64,000 nucleotides of DNA from Sabellastarte sp. h YS-2021. Its lineage: Eukaryota; Annelida; Polychaeta; Sabellida; Sabellidae. Position 1 is the stretch's first letter. Each line of letters opens with the position of its first letter. The stretch lies in assembly GCA_964017235.1 (NCBI GenBank), contig OZ024931.1, forward strand, positions 121,345,530 to 121,409,529. Reading direction: 5' to 3'. The position numbers and the translations under genes were made by a program. The notes beneath the pieces are model-generated. The model made no database searches and was not told the DNA's origin. It saw only the letters and a list, made by a program, of their open reading frames with translations. Shown piece by piece: positions 9,101 to 58,469 of the stretch.

Positions 9101-12100
9101 TTATCTGTCTATTTTTTTTTTGTAATGTTTGAAAAAAAGATATTCATGCCTTTCGATATTTTGATTAAAATAACCAAATATGTCCATCATCCATGTTCTA
9201 TTTATTTATACATAACCTTTGTATCATGTTGTGTTAAGTAGTTACATTAATTTGTTTCTTATAAAATTTTCCAAAAAAGTTTAATTTCTGAAAGACAAGA
9301 CACTATCACACATATTACAGGCTATATATAACATTATTTAACTAATATTGCCATGTATCATGGATACTGCTGACAAAATAGTGTAGATTGAACTATTAAA
9401 TTTCTCATTTCAAATCTGAGCTGCTTCTCATGTCAGAGCTGTACTACAAGGCTGTCTTTTCTTACAGTCTTGTTTTCATTCAGATGAAATGTTACAGCTA
9501 AAATGCCTCCCTGTGCATTTTTTTCAAATTAAGATGTCTTTTTTTTTTTCACAGGTGCATCTCACTACTGGTGACAAAACACAAAAGGAGATCTATATTC
9601 TATAACTACACCTAAGTTTGAGGAATAAGTGATGGCCAGGTTTTTTTCAAATGTCTTTTTTTTTCTGTGTTGTTCTCTACAGATTTTGTAACAGCTGTTT
9701 GTAGGTGTATTTCATTGTGGATGAAATGAGGCTGATTAACATTATTTGTAACTTTATTTACCCATTTTATCAAGCCAAGCTTTGGTTCCATTTTACAGGT
9801 GCGTTTCACTATGGATGATAATACCACACTGGCAGACCTGCTATCACTCAACCTGCACAACTTTGAGGATGAAGTTTTGGGCATTGTAGACAAGGCCGTG
9901 AAAGAAATGAGTATGGAAAAGGTCCTCAAAGAACTGGACACGACCTGGGCAACCATGGAGTTTGAGCATGACAAACATGCTAGAACTGGCATCACCATGC
10001 TGAAAGCCAGTGAAGAAGTCATTGAGACACTGGAAGACAATCAGGTATAGGTTTGAATGTCTGGCAGTACTTGTAATAGAGTGGATAGTGGATAATTGGA
10101 TTTGTATGTACATTTTGCACACTAATGTATATTGGCAGCATCATAACAACAAGTATTGGAGGAAATATGAGAAATTGTATCCCCAGACGAAAGTCGGGGA
10201 CACTTAGGATTCAGTACGGTCATGCCACCGCTGCTGCCGCCGCAAAGATTTCCTTTCGGACGCGATAAAAATATTTTAGTTAGACATTTCAAATTTGGTA
10301 TGTGGGTATATATGAGCAGACCGCCAAAGTACCTCATTGAGCCCATTTTGGGCCTGTGTGTAGAGACATTTCAGTGTTACCGCTCTAACAAAAAAAATGT
10401 TATAGCTAGCCTTCTCAAATTTGCAAGATATATTCATAACCATAACCATTCTTGCCTGGGAATATTTTTGGCGTCATTTTGAAAAATAAGATGGCCGCCA
10501 TGGGCAGTTTTTTTTACTTTCAACAAGGACTTTTTTGGCCCTCTAGAGCAAAGGATATTATAGGTAGAGATCTAAAATATGCAGGATATGTTCCTCATTA
10601 CAAAATATTTTTGGCCTCATTTTGAAAAACAAGATGGCTGCCACAGGTTTTTTTTTGTCAATCATGAAAAGTGCCTATATCTCCCTTATTATTGGTCCTA
10701 CAGGTTTTGGATGGTAAACCAACCGAATCTTTTGGTGGGGTCATTATCATCAGAACCCCTCATTCGAGCTAACATTTTGGATTGTACAATATTCGTATTT
10801 ATATCCCTGTGGCTTAAAATAACCTTTTTTGAGCATTATAATATATTGAGTAATTTTAGAGTAAAATACACATCTTATAATTGGAATACACTTTTATTTA
10901 GATTAGAGAAAGGCTAATATTTATCCTTTTATCTATTTTTTTTCAATCTCCTGAGATTGACTTGATTGGCTGTAGCTGGATTTTGTTTAGTAGCTTGTCC
11001 TTTTCTCCTAACCATAAGCCAGAAGTATTATGTTGATGAATTTTGTACACATGTATATAATTTAGCATGTTGGGTAAAATATTTTACTGCATTTGTTTTA
11101 TCAATTGCCTATATTCTTCCATGGAATAGAACCAACTGAAATCCTCGAGTGTTTCAGGTGATAGATACAGTAATAAAGATAATATAATCAAATAGAGCTA
11201 TCTCCTCAAAAATGTGTCCTTTGTCATGAACTGATATAGACTAGAGCATTCCTGGCTATATTTGCTACTGTGTTTCAGGTCCAACTGCAGAACATGCTGA
11301 CATCCAAGTGGATTGCCCACTTCCTGGAAGAGGTGTCCAGTTGGCAAAAAAAGCTGTCCACCGCTGACCAGGTGATCTCCATCTGGTTTGAGGTGCAGAG
11401 GACCTGGTCTCATCTCGAGTCTATTTTCATTGGCTCAGAGGACATCAGAAGTCAGCTGCCAGAGGATTCCAAGAGGTTTGATGGAATCGATACAGACTTC
11501 AAAGAACTCGTCAGTGAAGTAGAACAGACCAAGAATGTCGTGGAGGCGACAAATAGGCCAAAACTTTATGAAAGACTAGAATCCCTGCAAGGCCAGCTGA
11601 CTCTCTGTGAGAAAGCCCTGGCAGAATACCTGGAGACCAAGAGGTTGGCTTTCCCAAGGTTCTACTTTGTGTCCTCTGCTGATCTGCTGGACATCCTGTC
11701 TAATGGAAACAACCCTACGTTGGTGATGCGGCACTTGACCAAGCTGTTTGACAGCATGGCAAAGCTCAAGTTTATTCAGGATGACAAGGAGAATGATACC
11801 AAGACAGCCGTGGCCATGTGGTCAAAGGATGGAGAATTTGTGGACTTTCCAAATGAATGTGACTGCAGCGGTCAAGTAGAAGTCTGGCTTAACCGCCTGC
11901 TGGACACCCAGTGTGCCACAGTACTGCATGTCATGGGAGAAGCAGTGACTAGCTATGAAGAGAAGCCCAGAGATCAGTGGGTGTTTGACTTCCCAGCACA
12001 GGTGGCGTTGTGTGGTACTCAGATCTGGTGGACTACCGAGGTCAACATTGCCTTTGGAAGGTTAGAAGAAGGCTACGAGAATGCCCTAAAAGACTATAAC

Positions 12101-15100
12101 AAGAAGCAAGTTAGTCAGCTGAACAATCTCATCATGATGCTGCTCGGGAAACTGACTAAAGGAGACAGGCAGAAGATCATGACTATCTGTACCATTGATG
12201 TGCATGCTCGTGATGTGGTGTCCAAGCTTATAGCACAAAAAGTGGACAATGCCCAGGCCTTCACCTGGCTGTGCCAGCTCAGGCACAGGTGGGACGAGGG
12301 CAAGAAGGACTGCTTTGCTAACATCTGTGATGCTCAGTTCAAATATTCTCATGAGTACCTTGGTAACACGCCACGTCTTGTCATTACCCCACTGACTGAC
12401 CGCTGTTACATCACCCTCACACAGTCCCTCCACTTGACCATGAGTGGAGCACCTGCTGGACCAGCTGGAACAGGAAAAACAGAGACAACTAAAGATCTGG
12501 GACGTGCCTTAGGTATCATGGTGTATGTGTTCAACTGCTCTGAACAGATGGACTACAAATCCATTGGCAACATCTACAAAGGACTGGCTCAGTCTGGTGC
12601 CTGGGGATGCTTTGATGAGTTCAACCGTATTGCTGTGGAGGTGCTGTCTGTGGTGGCTGTACAGGTGAAATGCATCCAGGATGCCATCAAGGCAGAAAAG
12701 AAGGAATTCAACTTCCAGGGTGAAGTCATCAAACTCAAGACCACCGTTGGATTGTTTATTACCATGAACCCTGGTTATGCTGGAAGAACAGAACTGCCAG
12801 AGAACCTGAAGGCTCTCTTCAGGTAAGTTAAAAGTAATAGTGTTACAAAATGATAGACATTAACAGTGGACAGAGTAAGTAAAAACAAATAATGTTAAAG
12901 TAAAAAATATATAATAGCAGTTGTACAACAATTGCGATCAGGTCCACAGTTATAGAGTTTTTATAACTCATTGTCAAAAAGTACAAAAGATTATTTAGAG
13001 TGTTTATAAATTTTAAAATATACCCTCTTCCAATGCCAGGAATGGTGATGCTATTTTGTTTTAGAATACACCATGTAACCTTCAATTATTAGTACCTACA
13101 GAGAGCTTTCTGTACATTTTAGGCCATGTGCTATGGTGGTGCCTGACTTTGAGCTTATTGCTGAGATCATGATGGTTGCCGAGGGATTCATTGAGGCACG
13201 TCTGTTGGCGCGTAAGTTCATTACACTCTACTCCCTGTGCCGAGAGCTGCTGTCCAAGCAGGACCACTACGATTGGGGTCTGAGAGCCATCAAGTCCGTA
13301 CTTGTGGTGGCTGGATCGCTGAAGAGAGGTGATCCTGACAGGCCAGAGGATCAGGTGAGCAATGTATATTGAATGGTTACCTGTCATACATAATACTAGT
13401 GCTGCGACTTGGTCCGCAAAAACCACTCGATTATCGCCCACATGGGATCGATGCATCATTCGATGCCTCAGCAGACATTAAAATCATACAAAACTTACAG
13501 AGTAAATAACTAATCCACACTTTCATATAATATTTTTGTACATTTCAACAATTCTAAGGTGATATTTTGGGACAAAAACTGCTCCATATTTATTTTACGG
13601 AAAATCACTTCCTCTTTCGTTTGATTCGACTGGAAACATACTAGACCTCAACCCTTTTTTGGCTTTCCGAATTTTTTTTTTTTTTTATCAATGCATCGAA
13701 AGTGATGCGGTCATCGATCAATGCATCGAATGGACCACTAATCGGCGCAGCACTACATAATACAACTATTCAATTCAGTTTTCTGATTTGTATTGATGGG
13801 GATTGAGGGATATTAAGTGTTTGCTGGTGGTGGCAAAATAATTAAATAGAAGAAGGCAGTTTGTTTCTGTTTTGAGGGCCTGCCAAGACTCAAGTCTGGT
13901 GAACTTTTCTGCACAGTAAGCTTAATTTATTAAACAGTTTATAAATGAATTTCTTACTTCATGAAAGTTATAACCAGAGCACTGGCGAAATGGGATTCTA
14001 TCTTGTTAAGGGAGAATGGTATGCTGTACTATAAAGTAACAAACTCTGTGTAAATCAAGGACAAACCATATCTCCTGAAATGATTTTGTTTGCGGAATAT
14101 TGAATCCTTTATTTGTGTATATTTTGCCAGGTATTGATGAGAGCTCTGCGTGATTTCAACATCCCAAAGATTGTGACAGATGACGTTCCTATCATCATGG
14201 GTCTGATTGGAGACTTGTTCCCTGCTCTAGATGTGCCGCGTAAGAGAGATTTGGACTTTGAAAGGGACATCAAACAGGCTGTCGTGGATCTCAAACTGCA
14301 GCCCGAGGACAGCTTTGTGCTTAAGGTAAATGGGTCATGGATTTTCTTTGATGGGAAACAGTGGTGTCATGGTAACACAATCACTAACCACCCCTGAAGC
14401 CTTGGATATAAATTTCAACCCATCTTAAATGTGATGTACAGCTATAAATTTAATTCAATTTTAATTTAATTAATTATTTTATTGCGTAAAATAGCCTTAC
14501 CTTATCCTCACAAGTGCTTGTTTGGTTTTGTAGAGCAAAACGTATCGACCGACAAGAATTTTTTAAGGAATATTCTTGTCACAAGAGGTGACCCCTTTGT
14601 CTGCGCATGTCCGCGCTTGCGCAGTAGTCATTGTCGACAGACGATTGTCGAGAGCTCTTCATTATATTTTTGGTCGATATGGGAGCAACACGTATTTTTC
14701 CTTATTATCGTCCATTCACGGATGAAAATCTATGAAGTTTTTGAAGCGTGCAAGCGTGCACCTACCTGTAGTTGTCCATTATTCGACTGGTACTACCACT
14801 AATTCTGCCTCCCTTGTCCTGAAAAGGGTCAGAATAAGATGTGCAAGAAGATGTTGCTGTAAAGTCTTCAGTGGAAGACGTGTATATCTTCCGCTGTACT
14901 CACCCATTATTCGACTGGAATTACCTCCTTGTCGATGAAGGGGATGCAAAGAAGATTTCATTGCGTTAATACATCTTACCTACCAGACGATAGCTATAGC
15001 CCGGCGCCAGCTGGTCCCGCCAAACGAAAGAAAAGACGTCCTGGGTTTCACCCCCGGCAGGACCGGTACATTACACTCCACTCGCCAGGTGGCCTAGTTC

Positions 15101-18100
15101 CTGCTTCACTCGCCAGAGGGACGTGACGTCATAGCATCTTTTTCGTTTGGCGCGATATTCAAAGTTTGAATTTTTGGAAACTCTTTTTATTTTGAGTAGT
15201 TCTTAATTTATACAGTGTGTTTTGTGTTACGATTTGTCAGTTAGTTGGATAAACTACCATGGCATCTCCAGGACAAAGGAAAGGAGCCTGCGGGCATATC
15301 ATGGCTAATTTTGACCCTCATTCTCGTTGTGCCAGATGCAGGGATAAAGGGTTGGGCCAAGACCCGTGTGTTTTAAAGTTGCAGTGTGAGTTTTGTGACA
15401 CTTTAACCCCTGAACAATTGCTCCAGCTTTCAACCCCTACGTACAAACTGCGGAAGGAGAAATCTAAATCCAAAGAAGCCCTTGTGGATCCGTCCACTGT
15501 CACTATCGTGTCTCAGGTGGAAGCTCAGGAAGTTGCTTCAACTTCTCCACCCCATGTTGCTGAACAAGATCTCTCTTTACCTCCACCTATGTTCCGCCAA
15601 GAGTTAAAAGACTTGGACGAAAAGTGGTCAGTACGTATGGCCCGTCTGGAAGCACTCATTACTTTGGGGCAGCGTCCTTCACCTCAACCTTCCTTCTCAC
15701 CGGTCAAGGCACCGGTACCGCACCAAGCTCCCGCGGGAGCTCTTTCTCAGGCACCTTTTCTCTTATCATCTGTCCCTTCCGGCCAAGCCGCCCCGGCTTT
15801 TGGCCCGGATAGGATAAAACCTAGTGCCACTGTCACTACCAGCTCAATATCTAGGACGTCTCCTCTAGAAGGCCTTTACTCTGAACAGGACCCGGAACCG
15901 GTATTCTCTCAACAGAGTTCTTCCGGCCCGGTGGCCTCTGCTTTGCCTCAACCTCCTCCGCAATCCAGCTTGTTCAAGTCAGCTCCGGAGCACTTTGAAG
16001 AAGGTGAGGTATCTGACCAAGAAGACGTCACTGACCATCCTGATCAAGAATCTCCAGATTTGGATAAGACATTGAGCGAAGATCAAAATTACAGAGAGAC
16101 TGTTAGGGGAGTACGTGCTTTCATGGGCTGGTCGCATATCCCAGATCTTGAGTATACTCCAAGTTCCAAGTCAGACAATCCCTGGATTGGCCACCGGGCA
16201 CAACCTGTAGGCAAGGTCTCTATCGACTTACCACCAGAGGACTGGCTTTGTAAGAAGCTTGAAAATTTAAATCTCGTCCTCATAGAAGGTTACCCGTCCA
16301 AGTCTACGGAACCGGGTGGACTTCATGTTGATCAGTATCTCCGCCCCCCCAAATCTCAGGCAAGGTGGTACGGTATTCATCCCGCTGAAAACAAAGACAT
16401 CACTAGGCCGGGAAAATATGTTACTACTTGGCCCAATGACGCGGCGAAGTTGAACAGTTCCTTTGCCCGAATTGGTAAACCTGCTCTTGCTTCATCCCAA
16501 CCCGCCTCCCGCCCTATTGCTCAGGATACGCTCCGGAAGTGGGAGAAAGCAGCAAAAGAGACCAGTTATATTTGTAACCAGTCCGCTGGTTTCAATAGGT
16601 GCATCACCAAGATACAGGACTCGTTTCAAGAACAGTTACAAATTCTTCAGACAGAGTTGGGAAAAGGAAAATCTTCCACAAAAGCTCAAGGTGCACTTGA
16701 TGAATTACATTTCCTGTCTGCATTCAACCAAAATGTGAGTTTTGCGGTTGGCAAATCCCTCCAACACCTCTCAGATTTCACTTTTATACAAATGGCTAAT
16801 TTAACTCTGGTCAGGAGGGATTCTTATCTTGAGCACCTAAAAGCTGGCGTCAAGCCAGATACCTTTTCCTCTCTCAGGAACTGTCCTCTGCAAACCAGGG
16901 CTTTGTTTCCGGACGACATTATCCGGAGGGCGGAAGATGAAATAGCAGCATTTGAGTCACATAAGCGTACCAACCAGCCCGGTCCGGGCCGTGGTGGGTT
17001 CGCCGGCACTCAGAAAAAGCAACACCGTTACCAGCCATATTCAACATGGAAACAGGACGATTCTGGAAACTCCGGGGCTCCCGGCAAAGAGATGCCTGCA
17101 TGGAAAACATTTGGCAATCGCGGGAGAGCCCGTGGCAGAGGCAGGGGTGGTCAACCCGGTCGCGGTTCGCGCCCTGCCAGAGATGCTAAGGCGTATAAAT
17201 GACAATCACTGCAAAGTTCCTCCGGAAGTAACATCCTGTCCGGAGTTTGGTGTTGTAAATGTAACAAAGACAAGTCTTCCTGTTCTTGTGAAAGACTCTG
17301 TAAATTGTCACAATGTTGTTCATCATGTACTTTCTGTAAAAAACATCAGGCAGCCACAAAAGAAAGGCATAAGTCCAATCTTAAACTCACAAAATACAAT
17401 AAAGTATGTGAAAAGTGCTTCTTTTGTAAATCACTGTGTCTTTGCCCCAAGTGTGTCAAATGTCCTCAGTGTTGCAAATGTCCAATCAGTAGGGGGACGC
17501 CTACAAAATTTTTGGAAAGTATGGGCTCTCAAGGGTGCAAACCCGAAGGTAGTATCCATTTTGAAAAAGGGCTATGTGCTTCCCTTCAAGGTCAGACCTC
17601 CCTTAATAAGGGAACCCCTGATAGTAAGCGGCTATGCAAACCCCACCAGAGACTCCCACTTACAAGAAGCAGTGCAAGCTCTGATCAAGAAAAAGGCAGT
17701 AGAGAGGGTCAGGGTTCGAACCTCACTAGCCTTTTTCAACAGATTGTTCATTGTCCCAAAGCCGAACCAAAAGTGGCGGCCAATTTTGGATCTCAGTACT
17801 CTAAATCAGTTTTTATGCGTAAAAACATTCAAAATGGAGACTCCAGAGACAATCCGGACCTCTCTACAACAAGGCGAGTGGGTGTCATCAATAGATTTCA
17901 GCGACGCCTACTTCCACATTCCAATCCACTTCACATCCCGAAAATTCCTCAGGTTCCACTTCCAGAACCAGTCGTACCAGTTTCGGGCTCTTCCCTTTGG
18001 CCTCTCAACAGCTCCCATGGAGTTCACTGCTGTGGTCAAAGAGGTCAAGTTAATGGCTCAGTCACGGGGTATAAGAATCCACCAGTACCTAGACGACTGG

Positions 18101-42100: not shown

Positions 42101-45100
42101 TCTATACATAGATATATGTAGATGGAGACATTGTGGTCCAGTACATTAGAGTCCCATCACAGCTGCTTTGTAATCAGTTCATTACTGTATCTAAGCTGCA
42201 CTTAGAGATAAATTAGTTTTTAAGTTCTGTGGTATTTTGCAGGTGCCCTGGGAGGACTTGCGTTATCTATTTGGAGAGATCATGTACGGAGGTCATATCA
42301 CCGATGACTGGGACAGGAGACTGTGTCGTACTTACCTGGAGGAATACATGAACCCAGACATGTTAGAGGGAGAGCTCTACCTGGCCCCTGGGTTCCCCAT
42401 CCCTCCAAATACCGACTACAAAGGCTACCACTCCTACATAGACGAAGCCCTACCACCTGAGAGCCCTTACCTGTATGGTCTGCATCCTAATGCTGAGATT
42501 GACTTCTTGACCACCACCTCAGAGAACCTGTTCCGTACCGTGCTGGAGATGCAGCCCAGAGACACTGGGGCAGGAGCAGCAGGTGGAGTCAGCAGAGAGG
42601 AGAAGGTGGGTGAAAATAGGGGATGTGGGTGACAGTGGGGAAAATTGTGTCGGCAAAGAAGAGGTGGTTAAAAATATGGGTGTATTGGTGGGTGAAAAAG
42701 AGCAATTAAGAATTACTAAATAGAAAGATACATTAAAAATAGGGAAATTGGGAGACGTAGAGGGGAAGAAGGGTAAAAATAGGAGTCAACAGAGAGATAG
42801 TGGGTAAATGTAGAAGAAATGGCTGTTTTTGCAGAACCTTTCATTAGAAGAAGATATTCCTTAGACATGACGAAGGTTAGTATTGAAATCATCTGGCGGG
42901 AGGCCTCCTAAAGACATTAGTATGAATTATGTTACTCTGTGATTAAAAAAATTGCATGTATGAGCTTCAGATTTAGGTTACAGAAGTCTAAGTAACCTCC
43001 TATCTTCCATAGATGCGGTAATAAATCAGATTCTAGGCATTTGCATCTGCCAACATTATTGATTCCGGGGTAGTTTTACTTTACCGGTATGGGATCCACC
43101 ATATTTGATAATTACAGGAAATTGTCGGGGAAATATGAAATTATTATGTCCACCCCACTGGGGGGTAGACATATTATTTTTGCTTTTTCCGCCGTCCGGC
43201 ATCCCACTTGGTTTCCAGACATTTTAGGCAACAGTTCTTATCCTATCTTTACCAAATTTGGCATGCAGGTTTATTGGGTTAATAGCTTGTATGGGATTGC
43301 TTTTGGTGATGATAGCTCTACAGCTAACTTGAGTAATAGCTACTTTGCTACTTTTGAGTAGCTCTTTGGTTTCCAGCCATTTTAAGGAATGCTATTAAGC
43401 CTAGCTTTCTGAAATTTGGTATGGAGGTTCATTGGGTTAATAGCTTGTATGGGATTGCTTTTGGGGGGAATTGCTTCATAGATGAGTGAGTAATTAATTA
43501 AATAAATGAGTAATTAGCTATTTTGAATACTGAAAAAGGCAAATGTGCTCATATCTCCTAAACCGTGCGAGATAGAGCGATTTCGTCGAAATTTTCGACC
43601 CACAGGGTATCTAAGGAATGTACTCTTTGCAATTTTCAAAAAATTTTCCCCTCCCCAAAAATGGCGGCCATTTTGAATTTTCGAATTTTTGCCAAAAATG
43701 GCAAAACACAAATTTGCTTCTATCTCCTTAACCCTGCGAGATAAAGCGATTTTGTCGAAATTTTCGACCCACAGGGTATCTAAGGACTGTCCTCTTTGCA
43801 ATTTTCAAAAAATTTTCCCCTCCCCAAAAATGGCGGCCATTTTGAATTTTCGAATTTTTGCCCAAAATGGCAAAACACAAATTTGCTTCTATCTCCTTAA
43901 CCGTGCGAGATAGAGCGATTTCGTCAAAATTTTCGCTCAAAGGGTATCTGAGCATTGTAGTCTTGGCAATTTTCAAAAAATTTTCCCCTCCCCAAAAATG
44001 GCGGCCATTTTGAATTTTCGAATTTTTGCCAAAAATGGCAAAACACAAATTTGCTTCTATCTCCTTAATCGTGCGAGATAGAGCGATTTCGTCGAAATTT
44101 TCGACCCACAGGGTATCTAAGAAATGTACTCTTGCCAATTTTCAAAATATTTTCCTTTTCCCAAAAATGGCGGCCATTTTGAATTTTCAAATTTTTGCCA
44201 AAAATAGAAAAACAGGAATTTGCTTCTATCTACTTAACCGTGCAAGATAGAGTGATTTCGTCAAAATTTTCAACCCAACCAATGCAAAAAGGCATGAAGC
44301 TGAAATAATTTACATCTACACTAATAAATATTTAAGCATCATTGATATATTTTACAAATGAAACAGGGTCTTGTAAGACTACTGTACAATTTGGGCAAGG
44401 TTCAAGGGGTGGACATTACACATGATAATGTGTGTTCTTCTATGCTATCCTGTTTCTATTCGCATCTACTATCAACAGGGCGTCCTATTTCTAGTATTAA
44501 CAGTTATAAATGGGGGCAAGCCCCCAACCCCCATAAATAATATTACTAAAGGATGGAATATTGCTAAAAATGTTTAATTATATTATTGCCCAAATCTCGA
44601 ACCGGTAAAGTGAAAACTAGCCTTGACTCCCTATATCTTTTGTAAGACATTGTAATATTTGGATTGTTTTAGTGGCTTGTCATGTTTATTTGAACAGATC
44701 AAGTCTCTGCTGGATGACATCAGTGAGAAGTTACCAGATGAGTTTAGCATGCATGAACTGCAGGGCAAGGTTCCTCCAGATGAGCGTACACCATATACCA
44801 TTGTGGCCTTCCAGGAATGCGAGCGTATGAATACACTCACTAATGAAATGAAGCGCTCACTCAAAGAGCTTGATCTGGGTCTAAAGGTAAGGCCAGTTGG
44901 TTTTGTAAATATAAATTCTATAGTGAAATATCCCAACAACAGTTGCCCATTGAGTTTTTCCTGTGGTATGTCTTGAAAAGAGGATGCATTTTTCATTCAA
45001 GAATAGTATCATTATTTAGCAAAAATTGTGTTCCTGCACAATATCTATAAATTCTGTGTGTAAAATTGTATTTTTTATTTCATAAAAATGTAATATACCC

Positions 45101-48620: not shown

Positions 48621-49562
48621 TAACATCATTTGTTTTCGTTTCTCTCCGATTTTTATCAAACTGTGAATATTTTATGTCCCTGAGATATAATTTATTTGCA
48701 CATCAATGGAAGCTCTATGGCTGTGTAAAATGTATTTAGAACTGTGCAAACAGAAAAGTACTGCAGACCCTTGTTGGACTTACAGACTTCATTTATAACA
48801 GTTACAGTATCTGTTCTGTCATTATATGTTTATTATTGTGAATATTCATATTTTTGGCAGACTGTTGGGTTACCTGGCATCCAAAATATTGAACACCATC
48901 ATTCAATGGCACTTACACTTTAAAATAGACTATAGGAATAACCCCTGACCAAACCATGGTATACGCAGTGTTTTGTCATGGTTTGAGGTTATAAACTGTA
49001 AAGGTGAATCATATTCTAACATAACAAGTCTTTAATAATTATAAATATCATTTTTAAATTATTATTTGTATTTTTGTGACAAAATTGGATCAATTGCCGA
49101 GACAGCATTAATGAGCGATAATAAGACGCCACAGGTTATGCTGATTTTACCAATGAAGTATTTTGTCATTTAGCCAATCAAATTCACGGACACATCCGTG
49201 TCATGTTAGAATTACATGTAATAAACATGGTAAAACATTAATGCAACAGTTGACAGTTCACAAAATTCTGTTAGATATTTCATCAGCATGTACCAGCAAT
49301 ATAACCTCAACTAGAGATGAATACTGCTGCATAGATTTTTCCCATTGCAGTAAATCAAAACATTACAATATTTAAAGTGTCCCCAGTATGTAATCTGTAA
49401 AAAGAAATATATTAATATTAGCTTCACAACATACTACATTATAACTATACATATAATCCCGGCAGGAAAGTTATTACATGCTAACAATAATTCAACATTG
49501 TATTCAAAGAGCATAAACAGCCTGATAAACAGGGTTTTTATACTCAAATATTGCCGATAATT
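48621..49562. other. Intergenic, nothing recognised
   Basis: AT-rich sequence without a plausible ORF, family motif or clear repeat. Confidence 0.5.
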
Positions 49563-50475
49563 ATCTCCCACCAGCGACCAAAGGCCGTGGCTGGGACATT
49601 ATAAAACCCCTCCATATGTGTGTGCATGCATGCGTCTGTCACATTTTTACATCAAAATTTATGTATTAACTTTTTATTAACAAAGATATTTTCACCAAAT
49701 TTGCAGGAAATGTTTATGGCTATGAAGACATGTCTGCCATAGTCGATTGTTTTAAAATCATTAAGATACTCTAAAACTTGAAATATTGCAGCTAGCTTCA
49801 TCAAAATTTGTGCAAAAGCTATATGGCTAGGAAAGCTAGCCTGATACTAATTTGGCCAAGTTTTGAAACTTTAAGCAAAGTAGCTGTCATGTCAACAGGT
49901 TTAATGTCAAGTTGGGTTTTCCTATTAAAATTGTCTTATATCTCCCCTATCATTGCTCCTATTGGGGTTCTGGATTGTAAAAACACGTCATAGAAAGTTA
50001 TGGCCTGGGAATATTTTCCAAGTGTTGAATTTAACCTTTGACCCCTGCTTCAAGGTTAGATTTGGTCACCATTCTAAAACACCCTTATATCTTCCTTATT
50101 ATTGGCGCTATGTCTTCATGATGTGAAAACAGCTCATGGGAAGTCCGGGCCTGCAAATGTTTTGCCTGTGAAAAATTTTGGCCTCATTTTTAAAAACAAA
50201 ATGGCCAGCATATCTGATTTTTAAAAATCATTAGGATGCGCTAAATCTTGAAATATTATGGTTAGCTTCATCAAATTTGCACAAAAGATCTATGGATAAG
50301 AAAGCAAGCATGATAGTAATTTTAGCCTTGTTTTGAAAACAAAACAGTCGCCATATCACATGTTTAACGTTAAATGGGTTATCTTTTTAAGAAAGCCTTA
50401 TCCCCTCTTCAGGTTCAGAATGTGAAAATAGCTTACATGAAATCATGGCCTGAGACTGTTTTTCCAAATGTTGAA
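49563..50475 (+). repeat. Hairpin-led noncoding repeat 3
   Basis: Starts with an imperfect hairpin at 49563-49595 (ATCTCCCACCAGCGACC, AAA, GGCCGTGGCTGGGA). A GTGTGTGCATGCATGCGTCTG stretch follows (first 20 bases GTGTGTGCATGCATGCGTCT), then GTCACATTTTTACAT and ATTTTCACCAAATTTGCAGG. Modules with AAACAAAATGGCCAGCAT and TATCTCCCCTATCATTGCTCC recur. It is cut at its right side by a LINE fragment. Confidence 0.55.
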
Positions 50476-51715
50476 TTTGACCTTTGTTAGTAGTTGGTTG
50501 GATTACTGTAACTCACTTTTCAGGAGTCTCTTTAAGTTCAATCTTTGTTAATTACAGTGCATCCAAAAAAGTGCAGCTAGAATCTTATTAAATACCAATA
50601 GATACACTAGTATAACTCCTGTGCTTGAGAAATTGCATTGGCTTCCTGCTAAACATCGCTCAGTCTTTAAAACAGCCACCCTTATTTACAAGTTTCTTCA
50701 CACTGGTTTTCCCCAAGTATTTTGCTCCATATATATCTTCCTACAGCAGTTACCACAGTACCAGGCTCAGAGTGGTGGAAATTTCCTTGTCATTCCAAAG
50801 TTCCAACCCTCTATTCATAAATCTGTCAAGCAGTTTGGTTATAGTTATGCTTTTGATGCCCCCACTGTTTGGAATGCTCTTCCTGATGAGATTTGTGTGT
50901 TCCCCTCCCTAGCCTCTTTCAGAAAGCAGCTCAAAACCTACCTGTACACCAAGGCATACCCACCTTGGCCTTACTCAAGCCCAGGGGCTGGTTTCATGAA
51001 AAGTCTCAAACTGAGCCAGACTCAAGGCTGAGTCAGGGTCTCAAATCTGAGACTTTTGTCTCGGCTGAGTTTTTGGCTCAAATGGATTTCACAAAGGGTG
51101 GATCAGCTGAGATTAGTCTCAAGTTATGGTCTCAACTTTTTAATCTCATTTCATATATTTAGTGGGCTTATTTTTAGTTTAAAAAGTTATATTTCATGAT
51201 TATTATCATTTTAAATATCTTTAATACTCATAATACAAAGAAATTATATGATAATATATTATTCTAAGTGATCCATAAGATTGAGACTCAACTGAGGTTG
51301 AGTCTGGCTTTGAGTCCACCCTTGAGGCCTGTGACTTGATAATAGCCTATAAAGCATGTATCGCTTTATGTATGTGTTTTTTGGCATCAAAGCTTGGACT
51401 CAAATTTGAGACACCTCCTTCATGGGCTCAAATTTGAGCCTGTGACTGAGCCAGGTCTCAAGTTGAGCTTGTTTGTGAAATGCATTGAGTCTGAGTTCAC
51501 AGACTCCGCAAAATATTTCCAAAATTTGAGACAAGTCTCAACTTTTGAGTCTGACTCAAGGCTTAAGTCTGTTCATGAAACCGGCTCTGGTGTTCTCTGT
51601 GGTGCTTGGCCTTATTTCTGTCCCTGGATACTGAAATTGGTTTTGGTTCTGTTGTGCCTTGGAGTCCTCTTTGAATAGGGGAGATAAGCGCTATAAAAGT
51701 CCAATTAGAATTAGA
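50476..51715 (+). mobile_element. LINE 3' end (non-LTR retrotransposon), 5'-truncated and interrupted
   Basis: Translates as SWLDYCNSLFRSLFKFNLC, one stop, then QCIQKSAARILLNTNRYTSI and LEKLHWLPAKHRSVFKTATL to FRKQLKTYLYTKAYPPWP, the usual C-terminal region after reverse transcriptase in many animal LINEs. The 3' end AAGCGCTATAAAAGTCCAATTAGAATTAGAAT (within 51678-51713) is a GCGCTATA-type tail with a short ATTAGA repeat. A foldback element (50986-51586) sits inside it. Clade not resolved. Confidence 0.8.
50986..51586. mobile_element. Foldback MITE, ~600 bp, inserted in the LINE
   Basis: Inverted ends GGCTGGTTTCATGAA and TTCATGAAACCGGCT. The interior is made of many GAGTCT/AGACTC and TTTGAGACT words in both orientations, with GGATTTCACAAAGGGTGGA. 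No clear target duplication. It shares its design with the element at 61304. The open frame read through it is accidental. Confidence 0.75.
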
Positions 51716-51793
51716 ATACCATAAAGTGACAACATCCCATGGTTTATAATTATCAAGTACTAGGTATAGTATGAAAAGTGGTAAAAACAGCTC

Positions 51794-52340
51794 ATCTCCC
51801 ACCAGTTGAAGGCTGGGATCAGAAGATTATCAGTGCCTTCCATACTGTGTCTGTCTACCCGTTAGTCACGTTTTTACATAAATCATTATATTTCATTCAT
51901 TTATGAAGATGTCTTTACCAAATTTACACAGAATGTTTTTAGCTATGAAAACATTTCTATCAAAAATTTTGGCCTCATTTTAACAAACAAAATGGCGGTC
52001 ATAGCCCATTGTTCTAAAATCATTAACATGTTCTAAAACTTACAAACTTGCAGTTACCTTTATCAGATTTACACAAAATGTATATGGCTAGTAAAGCTTA
52101 CCTGAGAGTACTTTTGGTCTGGTTTTGAAAACAAAATGGCTGCCATGTCATATGTTTAAAGCAAAATAGGGCTTAGCATAATCTCTCCCTTATCATTGGT
52201 CCTGGGGGTTCGGAATGTGAAAAAGAAGTTAATGGATATCATGGCCTGTGAATCTTTTGCAAGTGACAAATTTGAACTTTGACCCTGCTTCAAGGTCAAG
52301 TGGGGTCATCACATGAAAAACTCATATCCCCCTTATTGGT
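51794..52340 (+). repeat. Hairpin-led noncoding repeat 4
   Basis: Begins ATCTCCCACCAGTTGAAGG then CTGGGA (weak stem), followed by TGTGTCTGTCTACCCGTTAG, GTCACGTTTTTACAT and CTTTACCAAATTTACACAG. Modules with AACAAAATGGCGGTCAT (51986), AACAAAATGGCTGCCAT (52131) and ATCTCTCCCTTATCATTGGTCC-like words. A diverged relative of repeat 3. No coding potential. Confidence 0.55.
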
Positions 52341-53202
52341 AGGGTTTTTTATGTGGTTGCCAAGAAAAGTGGTGTTTTTATGGTGGGAATTTTTTGAGTA
52401 GATCAAATTTTTCTACCCCTCCGTTTAGCTGATGGAAAATTTTCCTGATGGGAATTATTTATGGGAAAATTTCCTGTTGGGAAGTTTTTCAGATGGGAAA
52501 TTTTTCAGGGATTCAGCCACTGTATGTGGTTTTTTAATAAGAATTCATCCAATGTCAAAAATGCAACAAAACATTTATCTTTCTTAATGAAATCCCCAAA
52601 ATTATAAAGACATGAAACATTTTGTGAAACTCCAAAACATGCATGTAATTTCATAAATAATTTCATACTGTATTACATGTAATTTCATCTCTTATTATTG
52701 CTCCTTGGGCTTTGAAGCCTGTTTCATGGTCAAACTACCACCACTTTTTCTAAATACTTGTGGGGATAAACACTATAGCAGTGATATTGTTGTTCATAGT
52801 TTTGATTAAATTATCTCACATAAACTGCAATAAGGCCAATGTCTATGTTGCATTGTTTAAAGATTAAAGATTAAATCAATACATATCATCATGTTTTTAG
52901 TCATATAGTTTTTGCAACCCTGTCCTTTCACTGAAAACTAAACTTTTTGGTATTAATTTATCACCTGCCCTGATAATTCCCACGGCCCACTTTTAATCTC
53001 ATTGTTTTTTTTACTCTAATTTTTGCACCAAACTTTCACTATTCTCACCAGTTTTGTTTTGTTCTTATGAACAATCACAAACTATGTATAAACTTGTCGG
53101 TTCTGTTGAGGAACCAGAAAAGGATACACATTGTTCAGTCCAGAGCCTTATCAACAAGACATTATCCTTGTGATGCTACCATGCCAGATACCTCTTCTGT
53201 TT
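52341..53202. other. Intergenic, short degenerate GATGGGAAATTTT repeats then unique sequence
   Basis: Bases 52430-52505 hold four or five degenerate copies of GATGGGAAATTTTTC. The rest shows nothing recognisable. Confidence 0.5.
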
Positions 53203-53399
53203 TTTATCTCCCGCCGGGCTTTAGCCCGGGAGGGAGATTATGAAATGATGCCTGTGTGTGCGTGCGTGCGTGCGTTAGTTAGTCACGCAGATTCCTCCAA
53301 AACTACTACAGCTACAGATTTTTTGTAAATTAATTGTCCCAATGAATTTTCACGCCCTCGAAAATTTTTTTGGTTTTATGGACTTAGGCCTAACGATAA

Positions 53400-55450
53400 C
53401 TGAGTAATAGCTATCTTAGCTACTTGGAGTAAAGGGCTCATGACTCAAAAACTATTGCAGAAACAACTTTTTCTTCAAATATGTTGTTCAGCTACTTTGT
53501 CCTTAGCTATAAGAGGGTACATAGTTTGGGGTCCCATTGCATGCCATAAGTGAGTAATAGCTATTTTCTCATTTGTAGCTAAATAACAAAAGGAGTAAAT
53601 GTCAAATATCTTCCAAAGTATTAGAGTTACAGAAATCTTTTCAAATATGTTGTTCATCTACTTTTTGGTAAGCTATCACATAGTAAAGTTTCAGACCTGT
53701 TGCACCTTGGATAGCTGAGCAATAGCTACTTTGAAATTCTGATTGTTGAGTAAAGCCATTGTAACTCCAAAACCATTGCAGTTAGAGTGTTTCCCTAAAA
53801 TATGTTGTTCAGCTACTTTTTCCTTAGCTATAAGATGGTACATAGTTTGGGGTTCTGTTGCATGCCATTAGTGATTAATAGCTATTTTCTCATTTGTAGC
53901 TAAATAACAGAAGAAGTAAATGTCAAATATCTTCAAAAGTATTAAAGTTAGGGAAATCTTTTCAAATATGTTGTTCATCTACTTTTTGGTAAGCTATCAC
54001 ATAGTAAAGTTTCAGACCTGTTGCACCTTGGATAGCTGAGTAATAGCTACTTTGAAATTCTGATTGTTGAGTAAAGCCATTGTAACTCCAAAACCATTGC
54101 AGTTAGAGTGTTTCCCTAAAATATGTTGTTCAGCTACTTTGTCCTTAGCTATAAGATGGTACATAGTTTGGGGTTCTATTGCATGCCATAAGTGAGTAAT
54201 AGCTATTTTCTCATTTGTAGCTAAATAACAGAAGAAGTAAATGTCAAATATCTTCAAAAGTATTAAAGTTAGGGAAATCTTTTCATATATGTTATTCATC
54301 TACTTTTTGGTAAGCTATCACATAGTAAAGTTTCAGACCTGTTGCACCTTGGATAGCTGAGTAATAGCTACTTTGAAATTCTGACTGTTGAGTAAAGCCA
54401 TTGTAACTCCAAAATTATTGCAGTTAGACTGTTTTCCTAAAATATGTTGTTCAGCTACTTTGTCCTTAGCTATAAGATGGTATATAGTTTAGGGTTCTAT
54501 TGCATGCCATAAGTGAGTAATAGCTATTTTCTCATTTGTAGCTAAATAACAAAAGGAGTAAATGTCAAATATCTTCAAAAGTATTAAAGTTAGGGAAATC
54601 TTTTCATATATGTTATCCATCTACTTTTTGGTAAGCTATCACATGGTAAAGTTTCAGACCTGTTGCACCTTGGATAGCTGAGTAATAGCTACTTTGAAAT
54701 TCTGACTGTTGAGTAAAGCCATTGTAACTCCAAAACTATTGCAGTTAGAGTGTTTTCCTAAAATATGTTGTTCAGCTACTTTGTCCTTAGCTGTAAGATG
54801 GTACATAGTTTAGGGTTCTATTGCATGCCATAAGTGAGTAATAGCTATTTTCTCATTTGTATCTAAATAACAGGAGGAGTAAATGTCAAATATCTTTAAA
54901 AGTATTAGAGTTACAGAAATCTTTTCTATATGTTATCCATCTACTTTTTGGTAAGCTATCACATAGTAAAGTTTCAGACCTGTTGCACCTTGGATAGCTG
55001 AGTAATAGCTACTTTGAAATTCTGACTGTTGAGTAAAGCCATTGTAACTCCAAAATTATTGCAGTTACAGTGTTTTCCTAAAATATGTTGTTCAGCTACT
55101 TTGTCCTTAGCTATAAGATGGTCCATAGTTTGGGGTTCTGGTGCATGCCATAAGTGAGTAATAGCTATTTTCTCATTTGTAGCTTGAGTAAAGCCATTGT
55201 AACTCCAAAATTATTGCAGTTAGAGTGTTTTCCTAAAATATGTTGTTCAGCTACTTTGTCCTTAGCTATAAGATGGTCCATAGTTTGGGGTTCTGTTGCA
55301 TGCCTTAAGTGAGTAATTACTATTTTCTCATTTGTAGCTAAATAACAGAAGAAGTAAATGTCAAATATCTTCAAAAGTATTAAAGTTAGGGAAATCTTTT
55401 CAAATATGTTGTCCATCTACTTTTTGGTAAGCTATCACATAGTAAAGTTT
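53400..55450 (+). repeat. Satellite array A, ~320-bp units
   Basis: TACTTTGTCCTTAGCTATAA marks units near 53493, 53814, 54135, 54453, 54773 and 55094, with a short extra copy at 55251 (157 bp later). Each unit contains AAAGTTTCAGACCTGTTGCA and GAGTAATAGCTACTTTGAAA. The similar - strand frames of 60-95 residues are products of the repeat. Confidence 0.85.
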
Positions 55451-55479
55451 CAAATTTCAAAGTTTACAACTTTTGGTGG

Positions 55480-56815
55480 CCATCTTGAATTTTTGCGGAA
55501 AATGAAAAATGGCAAATATCTCTGAAACTGTCAGAGCGATTTCGAGCAAGTTTTGGACCCACAGTGTAGTAGAAGGGTTTCTGTTGAAACATGAAATTTT
55601 CAATTTCACATGGTAAAGTTTCAGACCCATAGCTAATTACTCACCTACTCAAAATGAGTTAATGCGAATTATCTCTAAAAGTACTGCAGATAGCCAATTT
55701 TTCTCAACTAACTCATTCACCTACTTTTGGGAGAGCTTTCACTTGGTGAAGTTTCAGACCTGTAGCTAAGTACTCACCTAATCAAAATGAGTTAATGCTA
55801 ATTATCTGTAAAAGTATTGCACATAGCCAATTTTTCTCAAATAACTCATTCACCTACTTTGGGAAGAGCTTTCACTTGGTGAAGTTTTAGACCCACAGCT
55901 AATTACTCACCTACTCAAAATGAGTAAATATGAATTATCTCTAAAGGTACTGCAGATAGCCAATTTTTCTCAAATAACTCATTCACCAACTTTTGGAAGA
56001 GCTTTCACATGGTGAAGTTTCACACCCATAGCTAATTATTCACCTCAAAATGAGTAAATGCGAATTATCTCTAAAAGTACTGCAGATAGCCAATTTTTCT
56101 CAAATAACTCATTCACCTACTTTTGGAAGAGCTTTCACTTGGTGAAGTTTCAGACCCATAGCTAATTACTCACCTACTCAAAATGAGTTAATGCGAATTA
56201 TCTCTAAAAGTACTGCAGATAGCCAATTTTTCTCAACTAACTCATTCACCTACTTTTGGGAGAGCTTTCACTTGGTGAAGTTTCAGACCTGTAGCTAAGT
56301 ACTCACCTAATCAAAATGAGTTAATGCTAATTATCTGTAAAAGTATTGCACATAGCCAATTTTTCTCAAATAACTTTGGGAAGAGCTTTCACTTGGTGAA
56401 GTTTTAGACCCACAGCTAATTACTCACCTACTCAAAATGAGTAAATATGAATTATCTCTAAAGGTACTGCAGATAGCCAATTTTTCTCAAATAACTCATT
56501 CACCAACTTTTGGAAGAGCTTTCACATGGTGAAGTTTCAGACCCATAGCTAATTACTCACCTACTCAAAATGAGTTAATGCGAATTATCTCTAAAAGTAC
56601 TGCAGATAGCCAATTTTTCTCAACTAACTCATTCACCTTCCTTTGGGAGAGCTTTCGCTTGAAGTTTCAGACCCATAGTTAATTACTCACCTACTCAAAA
56701 TGAGTACATGCTAATTATGTCTAAAAGTATTGCAGATAGCCAGTATTTCTCAAATAACTCATTCACCTACATTTTGGAGAGCTTTCACATGCTAAAGTTT
56801 TTTTATGACTTTTTA
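55480..56815 (+). repeat. Satellite array B, ~132-bp monomers in a 529-bp higher-order unit
   Basis: AAAATGAGT monomer starts lie near 55651, 55783, 55917, 56047, 56180 and onward. The stretch from 55651 recurs from 56180 almost unchanged apart from a ~15-bp deletion, giving a four-monomer higher-order repeat. The first part (55480-55600) carries GAGCGATTTCGAGCAAGTTT and GGACCCACAG, words also found in the 168-bp satellite at 43550-44275. Confidence 0.85.
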
Positions 56816-57640
56816 AAATAATTTTTTATTCATTAAAAGTAATGAAATCATGCCCTAAATCAATTATAACTTGAAAAGTATTGCATTTAGAGCACTTTGT
56901 TAAAATATGTTATTCAGCTACTTTTTCCATAGCTACAGCATGGTGAGTAACTTGGGTGTCTATCTCAATAGCTAAGTGAGTAATAGCTACTTTTGGATTT
57001 TTCACTAACTTCCATCATGAGTAAAATCACTTGTAACTTGAAAACTGTTGTATTTACAGAATTTTATGCAAATATGTTATTCATCTACTTTTGGGTCAGC
57101 TATAACATAGTAAAATTTCAGACCTGTAGCTCATTGCATAGCTGAGTAATAGCTACTTTTAGGTTATCACTGTTGGGTAAATCACTTATAACTTGAATAC
57201 TCTTGCATTTACATTATTTAGTTGCAATATGTTATTCACCTATTTTGAAGCAGCTATAACATAGTTAAGTTCCAGACCTGTGGCTCATAGCATAGCTGAG
57301 TAATAGCTACTTTGAAGTTCTTACTCAACACTACATCATTTATAACTTGAAAAGTATTGCATTTAGAGGATTTTGTTAAAATATGATATTCACCTACTTT
57401 TTCAATAGCAACAACATGGTGAGTAACTTGGGTGTCTATCTCAATAGCTAAGTGAGTAATAGCTACTTTTGGACTTTTTACTAACTTCCATCATGAGTAA
57501 AATCAATTGTAACGTGAAAACTATTGGATTTAGAGAATTTTGTGCAAATATATTATTCACCTACTTTTGGGTCAGCTATAACATAATAAAAATTTCAGAC
57601 TTCTAGCTCATGCTATGGCTGGGTAATAGCTACTTTTGCC
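56815..57640 (+). repeat. Satellite array C, ~150-bp subunits alternating in two types
   Basis: TATAACTTGAAAAGTATTGC and GTAACTTGAAAACTGTTG alternate, each followed by ATATGTTATTCA(G/C)CTACTTT and a CTAAGTGAGTAATAGCTACT-like end. The alternation makes a dimer of about 500 bp. It is a relative of arrays A and B. Confidence 0.7.
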
Positions 57641-57689
57641 TTTGCCGGTGGATACATTTTGCATCTGGCCACAGAAGCGTCATTGGTCT

Positions 57690-58240
57690 AGTTCTAATAA
57701 GTCATTCACATACTTTTGGGTGATCTACCACATACTGAAGTTGCAGAACTGTAGCTCTTTGGATAGCTGAGTAATAGCTACTAAAATGAGTAAATGTCTT
57801 TTATCTCTAAAAGTATTACAGGTAGGCAATTCCTTCTAAATAAGTCATTCATCTACTTGTGGGTGATCTACCACATAGTGAAGTTGCAGAACTGTAGCTC
57901 TTTGGATAGCTGAGTAATAGCTACTAAAATGAGTACATGTCTTTTATCTCTAAAAGTATTACAGGTAGGCAATTCCTTCTAAATAAGTCATTTACCTACT
58001 TTTGGGTGATCTACCACATAGTGAAGTTGCAGAACTGTAGCTCTTTGGATAGCTGAGTAATAGCTACTAAAATGAGTAAATGTCTTTTATCTGTAAAAGT
58101 ATTACAGGTAGGCAATTTCTTCTAAATAAGTCATTCACCTACTTTTGGGTGATCTACTGCATATTAAAGTTGTAGAACTGTAGCTCTTTGGATGGCAGAG
58201 TAATAGCTACTAAAATGAATCAATGCCTTTTGTCTTTAAA
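57690..58240 (+). repeat. Satellite array D, 143-bp monomers
   Basis: Monomers at 57783, 57926, 58069 and 58212 (AAAATGAGTAAATGTCTTTT, AAGTATTACAGGTAGGCAAT, GGTGATCTACCACATAGTGA). Four copies with few differences, so the youngest looking array in the element. Confidence 0.85.
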
Positions 58241-58469
58241 AGTATTGCAATCAAACATTAAACTTGTCACTTCTACATGTGCCTCCATCTCACAAGAAAA
58301 TTTATATTCCACTATCTTTAGTACATCTTATTTATACGGCGGGAGATAAATGCATGCGTCAGAATGCTTGTTTCTTTTGAACTGACCTGTTAACCATTCA
58401 ATGGGAGCTGACACAGGGACTTGCCAAATGTGAAAGTACACGGTTGACTCCTAGAGCCACTGCTATCCA

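Follow-up and report, generated by a model that had tools for sequence, protein, structure and literature searches.

Five hairpin-led noncoding elements in a dynein gene of the annelid Sabellastarte are very probably non-autonomous rolling-circle transposons

Introduction

What are the hairpin-led noncoding repeats scattered through a dynein heavy chain gene of the annelid Sabellastarte sp. h YS-2021, and what moves them? The stretch that raises this question, here called the window, is 64,000 nucleotides long (64 kb; GenBank assembly GCA_964017235.1, contig OZ024931.1, positions 121,345,530 to 121,409,529, forward strand) and sits inside that gene, with Pfam matches to DHC_N2, AAA_6, AAA_8, MT, AAA_9 and Dynein_heavy in its reading frames. 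An earlier note, made from the letters alone, had singled out five loci, which we name E1 (10180), E2 (43148), E3 (49563), E4 (51794) and E5 (53206). It had taken them for one set of elements with hairpin heads, a kept layout, shared module words and almost completely different stems, belonging to no named family and read perhaps by their structure.

Copies of these loci were sought in the same genome (1.79 Gb), the best 40 of 1,423-4,330 candidates being scored in each DNA search. The five are very probably non-autonomous rolling-circle transposons of the Helitron superfamily: E3, E5 and, less surely, E4 are HINEs, that is, non-autonomous Helentrons, and E1 and E2 are CTAG-ended relatives of the proto-Helentron or Hel-2 type. 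Some of these families have spread recently.

Results

Element ends and layout

The common layout opens with a 5′ hairpin, the first arm of which forms a subterminal inverted repeat, and runs on through a GTCY- or GTGC-type stretch and satellite-like modules to a second repeat copy close to the 3′ end and a 3′ hairpin. All five loci have a palindromic head, weak at E4; behind it come a short stretch of GTGC, GTCY or CCGTCC type, which bears out the CpG/TpG-rich stretch described before, and then AT-rich modules. That no protein is encoded also holds: nothing recognisable was seen, and the stop-to-stop frames of at least 110 amino acids in the five spans, taken by length and not compared with protein families, include none longer than 137 amino acids.

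As isolated hairpins the heads are uneven. Against a background of all 44-nucleotide windows of the stretch (step 4, + strand), the share at least as stable is 0.0002 for E5, 0.006 for E2, 0.024 for E1, 0.039 for E3 and 0.104 for E4. Only E5 and E2 stand out, and hairpin energy alone was rejected as evidence for E1, E3 and E4, which are not exceptional in the window. Support for the heads comes from the boundaries in genome copies and not from hairpin stability by itself.

These boundaries are sharp in several families. All 39 non-self matches to E5 start at query positions 51-55, which is the head, and all 39 main rows for E2 begin at 52-64, again the head (one 48-base reverse-strand row was set aside). 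Of the 48 non-self rows for E3, 25 begin at 53-64 (head) and none earlier, and the E1 head is present in five of seven non-self loci, with starts at 10173-10182. The hairpin thus marks an element end at E1, E2, E3 and E5, as had been supposed for all five, and does not do so cleanly at E4, to which we return below. Exact sequences recur throughout the genome: the 39-base E5 head has 1,760 exact copies, the 30-base head of E1b (a 4.05-kb sister family of E1) has 6,988, and a 34-base pattern of the E3-type 3′ end, 4 of its positions free, is matched without mismatch 427 times, with 0 for each reversed control. Copies are 98-99% identical for E5; those scored for E2 are 97-99% identical to the window element, and E1b 3′ ends agree at 99-100% over about 340 bases. 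Matches to E3 (70-92%) and E4 (77-84%) are more diverged.

The 3′ ends divide the loci into two types, CTAG (E1, E2) and TTGTT (E3, E4, E5), and the five are not copies of one set. In E2 copies CTAG is followed by T in 18 of 18, and the base before the TTATG start is A in 31 of 32. The 3′ end of E1 was not found within the window, where this element is probably truncated on its 3′ side; in its relatives L007, L008 and L114, GGGGATAY and a palindrome lead up to the terminal CTAG, after which comes T. Starts of the CTAG type read TTGTATCC, TTATATCC or TTATGTCC. The canonical 5′ TC of Helitron1 is not among them. The 3′ CTRR of Helitron1 with an upstream palindrome is present as CTAG in E2 and the E1 relatives, the palindrome being clear in the latter and weak right before CTAG in E2. 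All 20 E5 copies read end in GGCGGGAGATAAATGCATGCGTCAGAATGCTTGTT (TTGTT). The nine E3 relatives for which both ends are present measure 506-1061 bp and close with a repeat like GGCGGGAGATAA, a palindrome like CCRCTGCGGCAGTGG and a terminal CCTTGTT or similar; E3 in the window is without its own 3′ end, and no array was called in it.

Judged by the structure of HINEs, E3 and E5 carry the 5′ subterminal repeat with a complementary inner repeat, which is degenerate in E4. A microsatellite with central tandem repeats also occurs (arrays in E5 and E4). A 3′ repeat complementary to the 5′ one, with a palindrome, is found in E5 and, through its relative L059, in E3; in E4 the match between the two is 5 bases. 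The features of the window elements are collected in Table 1.

Table 1 Features of the five hairpin-led loci, in window positions
Feature	Position	Strand	Remarks
E1, CTAG-type family member	10175..10770	+	head ~10175-10204 (TTGTATCCCC...GGGGACAC), CCG-rich stretch, modules
E2, complete CTAG-type element	43144..44494	+	host A, TTATGTCC...TTTCTAG, host T
E2 5′ hairpin	43144..43173	+	repeat ATGTCCACCCC and its complement
E2 satellite-like array	43540..44277	+	period 169, 4.4 copies
E2 3′ subterminal repeat GGGGTGGACAT, then palindrome ACACATGATAATGTGTGT	44406..44435	+	11-base match to complement of own 5′ arm
E3, HINE-type element	49561..50486	+	cut off 3′ where LINE-like sequence begins
E3 hairpin head	49561-49604	+	microsatellite ~49618-49641
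E4, degenerate HINE-type element	51792..52791	+	head 51792-51827
E4 short array	52429-52504		period 16
E4 3′ end GGGGATAA + CACTATAGCAGTG + ATATTGTT	52762-52791	+	assigned by layout only
E5, complete HINE-type element, ~5.17 kb	53205..58372	+	shared 3′ boundary among copies
E5 5′ hairpin ATCTCCC...GGGAGAT	53205..53241	+	exact head copies in genome
E5 GTGC-type microsatellite	53253..53281	+	
E5 satellite-like arrays	53443..58246	+	periods 321, 155, 133, 154, 143
E5 3′ subterminal repeat GGCGGGAGATAA, palindrome GCAT...ATGC, terminal TTGTT	58338..58372	+	13-base match to complement of own head

The stems are less foreign to one another than had been claimed, ATCTCCC(A/G)CC being common to the heads of E3, E4 and E5; it is correct that one layout persists through changes of stem from family to family. 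The module words are not shared by all. TATCTCCYTA matches exactly 3 times, each time in E2; for AAnATGGCnGCCAT there are 11 matches counting both strands (0.0 expected), 10 falling in E1, E2 and E4; and for CCAAATTTG there are 5 (1.8 expected), 4 falling in E1, E2 and E3. The words were rejected as a defining feature, since E5 has none of the three.

Within E2 itself, at 44406-44494, the repeat and palindrome are followed by TGTT, and the CTAG end comes only some 55 bases further on. This inner repeat, palindrome and TGTT are possibly an old 3′ end that was bypassed and replaced by a new one.

Insertion sites

Filled and empty sites could be compared directly for the CTAG type. L114, a copy of the autonomous element described in the next section, is interrupted by E1b, and its sister copies L109 and L110 are uninterrupted. 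Their empty site reads CATTGTTTA|TTTTGGATAG, and the filled site of L114 reads CATTGTTTA, then TTATATCCCC...CCCAATCTAG, then TTTTGGATAG. Likewise, the repeat that hosts E2 in the window has in L059 a diverged copy free of the insertion, and the filled and empty sequences (GAAATTA|TATTAACAG vs GAAATTAAATTAACAG, 16 bases each) differ by one mismatch. In these pairs, insertion of the CTAG type leaves no target duplication. Read by eye, L006 holds an E2 nested in an E1 copy. The letters at CTAG-type junctions allow two readings: TT...CTAG inserted at A|T, or T...CTAGT inserted at T|T. With 5′ TT, 3′ CTAG, A/T insertion and no duplication, the E1/E2 type has proto-Helentron-like ends.

E1b (L114 1862-5917) contains 351-base tandem repeats, and its L114 copy has no frame longer than 132 amino acids. 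Among the first 20 of the 6,988 head copies, position -3 of the 5′ flank is T in 20, position -2 is A or T in 18, and position -1 is A in 17. The 3′ flanks begin TTTTG in 20 of 20 of the best-scoring places, a sample that is biased towards it because the query itself contained TTTTG; all main listed places reach it. The filled/empty pair of L114 agrees with TWA|TTTTG, which is the probable extended target of E1b. At C3 105645932, 105650047 and 105654161 (L116-L118), three consecutive E1b 3′ ends are spaced by 4,114-4,115 bases, each followed by the same 52-base spacer and another E1b head. This head-to-tail run may reflect rolling-circle read-through, or tandem duplication or recombination.

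An autonomous element of the same layout

The genome holds 24 places with a match to Helitron_like_N, of which four were read, three of them belonging to one family. In L109, Helitron_like_N, PIF1 and a sub-threshold endonuclease/exonuclease/phosphatase match lie in one frame; in L113, Helitron_like_N and PIF1 lie in two frames, and Exo_endo_phos_2 scores above its cut-off (29.3 vs 27.4 bits). L109 and L110 are 98-99% identical. Both begin with TAGG(C/T)GGGTTGCGTGTAACCAACCCGCCTA after TTTT, continue with a GTCCGTCTGTCCGTCT microsatellite (GTCY-type) and tandem repeats, and end in CGCAACCCGCCT, a palindrome and CTCTTG, the copy in C3 measuring 12,267 bp. This autonomous Helentron-like element, with Rep, PIF1 helicase and an endonuclease-like domain, is arranged like the five loci except for its stem.

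Around 7050-7130 in L113 we observed a degenerate E5-like head, ~0.4 kb downstream of the helicase/endonuclease frame and on the same strand. It may have nested there by chance, or be what is left of an autonomous E5 relative.

Arms, 3′ repeats and covariation

The complement of the first 22 bases of six elements was compared with every 3′ end. Within the same element the matches are 12 bases for E1b, 11 for E2, 13 for the E3 relative L059, 13 for E5 and 12 for the Helentron L110, with 5 for E4. Matches between families reach 8 at most, except for 12 in both directions between E3 and E5, which share a ATCTCCCGCC arm. Apart from E4, the elements compared thus vary in 5′ arm and 3′ repeat together from one family to the next, which points to recognition by sequence plus structure.

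Compensatory change within a family was examined in 31 heads of the E3/E4 kind. They were obtained from 57 raw matches by dropping 20 that were the same heads from the other strand, five of other length (L056, one of L068, L077, L085 and L087) and L086, a near-copy of L083. In these heads 87.1% of cells are paired (151 of 500 shuffles as high), compared with 30-51% for slid partners. The covariation score is 0.120 against a shuffled mean of 0.119, and 215 of 500 shuffles were as high. Compensatory change within this family is thus unsupported, its signal being at shuffle level; such a null is expected of decaying dead copies and gives no support to the idea of recognition by structure only.

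Alternative explanations

Several observations weigh against the assignment to the Helitron superfamily, or against parts of it. E4 fails the arm test with its 5 bases, and the arm of E1b fits the E4 3′ end better, with 8. Its head also lies behind an internal module of the same element kind in 5 of 12 copies read (L077, L078, L079, L081 and L087), and 5 of its 39 non-self matches begin 9-11 bases upstream of the head; for these two reasons the E4 head is not at a clean element end. At the empty site of L059, A and not T directly follows the insertion point. No clean filled/empty pair was obtained for the TTGTT type: T-rich bases make the comparison of L059 with the window ambiguous, and for the E5 copy L072 the search for such a pair did not turn up the other side. 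The base after TTGTT in E5 copies is T in 18 of 20 and A in 2; T precedes TATCTCCC in 8 of 8 cases, and that T may belong to the element itself. The endonuclease match of L109 is under the Pfam cut-off (21.5 vs 24.5 bits), no autonomous element with the stem of any of the five was found among the four of 24 Helitron_like_N places read, and the covariation just described is null. Likewise, among the E3-type 3′ pattern matches listed (C1 and part of C2), none seen by eye lies less than ~90 kb from a RepHel place.

As an observation apart, the five copies L077, L078, L079, L081 and L087 form a composite E4 lineage, with the head fused behind the internal module at a similar place.

Could the heads belong instead to a new class, unrelated to Helitrons and read purely by hairpin structure, as in single-strand movement of the IS200/IS605 kind? 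Recognition of hairpins in single strands is plausible in general, and pairing is kept while stem sequence differs between families. Such a class is nevertheless very improbable in view of the CTAG|T or TTGTT 3′ ends, the CTAG-type insertion without duplication, the 3′ subterminal repeats and palindromes, and the autonomous RepHel element of the same layout in this genome, to which the null covariation can be added. Inverted repeats near both ends would also suit miniature inverted-repeat elements that a cut-and-paste transposase mobilises and in which the hairpin serves as one of the terminal inverted repeats; we give this the least credence of all, as the CTAG-type filled/empty pairs lack a target duplication and some 23-78 bases lie between the 3′ repeat, which a palindrome follows, and the end.

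It is similarly hard to believe that the heads are chance palindromes in dispersed satellite arrays whose copies spread by recombination and not by transposition. Three of the five heads are not exceptional in the window, arrays are common, and the E1b head-to-tail run at 4,114-4,115-base spacing may be due to recombination as well as to rolling-circle read-through. On the other side, boundaries coincide with the head in many copies, exact heads number 0 in reversed controls, and the filled/empty sites imply one-step insertion. Membership of the Helitron superfamily remains by far the best account of the five loci.

Proposed mechanism

To the observed element ends, the duplication-free insertion of the CTAG type, the layout of the autonomous RepHel element and the high copy identity, a mechanism can be added by analogy with the Helraiser work and from family resemblance. 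A RepHel protein encoded elsewhere in the genome would recognise the family-specific 5′ repeat, which would be hairpin-shaped when the strand is single-stranded, and would nick the boundary of host and element at the end of the 5′ hairpin. It would then unwind through the microsatellite and the satellite modules, stop at the 3′ repeat and 3′ hairpin, and nick at CTAG or TTGTT, after which the copy would be inserted into A|T or T|T with no duplication of the target. In this scheme, the part played by the 5′ hairpin and the pairing of each family with its autonomous mover are what we infer and not what we saw. Of the trans-acting, structure-reading mover suggested before, the part that is likely is a Rep/helicase acting in trans; recognition by structure only has no support from the covariation, which is null.

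Tentatively, and with more doubt than confidence, we suggest that E1, E1b and E2 are living animal members of the Helitron-Helentron intermediate described from an oomycete, with the extended target TWA|TTTTG and not plain A|T. Helentron-type 5′ hairpins and paired 3′ repeats would here be joined to Helitron-type CTAG ends and still be spreading.

Neighbouring features

The window contains further repeats. A copia-type retrotransposon lies at 4825-8790 (-), with a stop-free frame of 1321 amino acids, and a further retroelement, at 16946-19519 (+), matches RVT_1 and RNase H-like domains. A tandem array of ~145-base units occupies 35522-36765; such an array is also found a few kb from the RepHel locus L113. 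The sequence at 50487-51720, beginning where E3 stops, resembles the 3′ part of a long interspersed nuclear element (LINE); its open frame at 50552-51031 has no Pfam match, and by eye a stretch at ~50985-51585 within it has inverted ends, GGTTTCATG...CATGAAACC.

Comparison with known systems

The design that had seemed unexplained is that of Helentrons and HINEs, as a single genome shows through its element ends, its insertion sites and an autonomous element built on that layout. Several families with one layout and different stems, some with thousands of exact heads, make a useful system. It could tell what RepHel proteins read, be it the sequence of the arm, its hairpin or both, and whether elements that combine CTAG with a Helentron-type 5′ end form a functioning intermediate.

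Far from lacking a named family, the design appears in passages of two papers, on HINEs and Helentrons (PMC4067079) and on the oyster Cg_HINE (PMC7492417). The passages of PMC4067079 used here describe HINEs by subterminal repeats that are palindromic and lie close to the 5′ end, by repeats in the centre, by a repeat and a palindrome on the 3′ side and by T-rich targets, and give Helentrons as their partners. With HINE/DINE-1 elements, as these passages present them, our loci share palindromic 5′ subterminal repeats (as in mite HINEs) or a repeat with an inner inverted repeat (as in DINE-1), a microsatellite, central repeats, a 3′ repeat and palindrome and, probably, a TT or T-rich target and partners with Rep, helicase and endonuclease. 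They differ in having their own stem sequences, in the CTAG ends of E1 and E2, and in that no identical-ended partner was found here.

In the sections of PMC7492417 drawn on, Cg_HINE of Crassostrea gigas consists of a repeat, a complementary inner repeat, a microsatellite, a satellite-like array, a 3′ repeat and a palindrome, and Pearl is re-categorised as a non-autonomous Helentron. The likeness, which is one of description and not of sequence comparison, extends to the 11-12-base repeat, the complementary inner repeat 1-12 bases away, the GTCY-type microsatellite in several families, the satellite-like array, the 3′ repeat with palindrome, and the way in which families combine modules differently. 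According to the same sections, Cg_HINE elements could not be related to autonomous ones there either.

For E1 and E2 the closest parallels lie elsewhere. The proto-Helentron is given in PMC4067079 as having 5′ TT, 3′ CTAG and A|T insertion, and that of Phytophthora infestans shares these ends and the lack of duplication with E1/E2; it differs in being autonomous and about 14 kb long, with no 5′ hairpin mentioned in those passages, whereas E1 and E2 encode nothing recognisable. Hel-2 of Lepidoptera, as excerpted from PMC4344730, is non-autonomous and has a 5′ inverted repeat, subterminal inverted repeats, a tetranucleotide microsatellite (CTGT)n, a 3′ hairpin, CTAG and A/T flanks, and differs by its 5′ TC from the TT of E1/E2. 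The passages and literature listings consulted gave no description of an animal element combining 5′ TT, a 5′ hairpin and CTAG, which does not show that none exists. Helitron2/FoHeli of Fusarium, in the part of PMC5148889 used, has asymmetric inverted repeats and, in some elements, hairpins at both ends, and differs in starting with TCAG or TGCCT, ending in ATTTT or CTCCTGT, and being fungal. In Helraiser, as quoted from PMC4778049, the 3′ hairpin acts as a terminator and insertion occurs at AT. Because the HINE/Helentron, Cg_HINE, Hel-2 and Helitron2 descriptions, so far as these excerpts go, already hold the layout that the earlier note had found, that layout was known before, and the Sabellastarte families are fresh members of already known kinds, set beside them by layout and ends.

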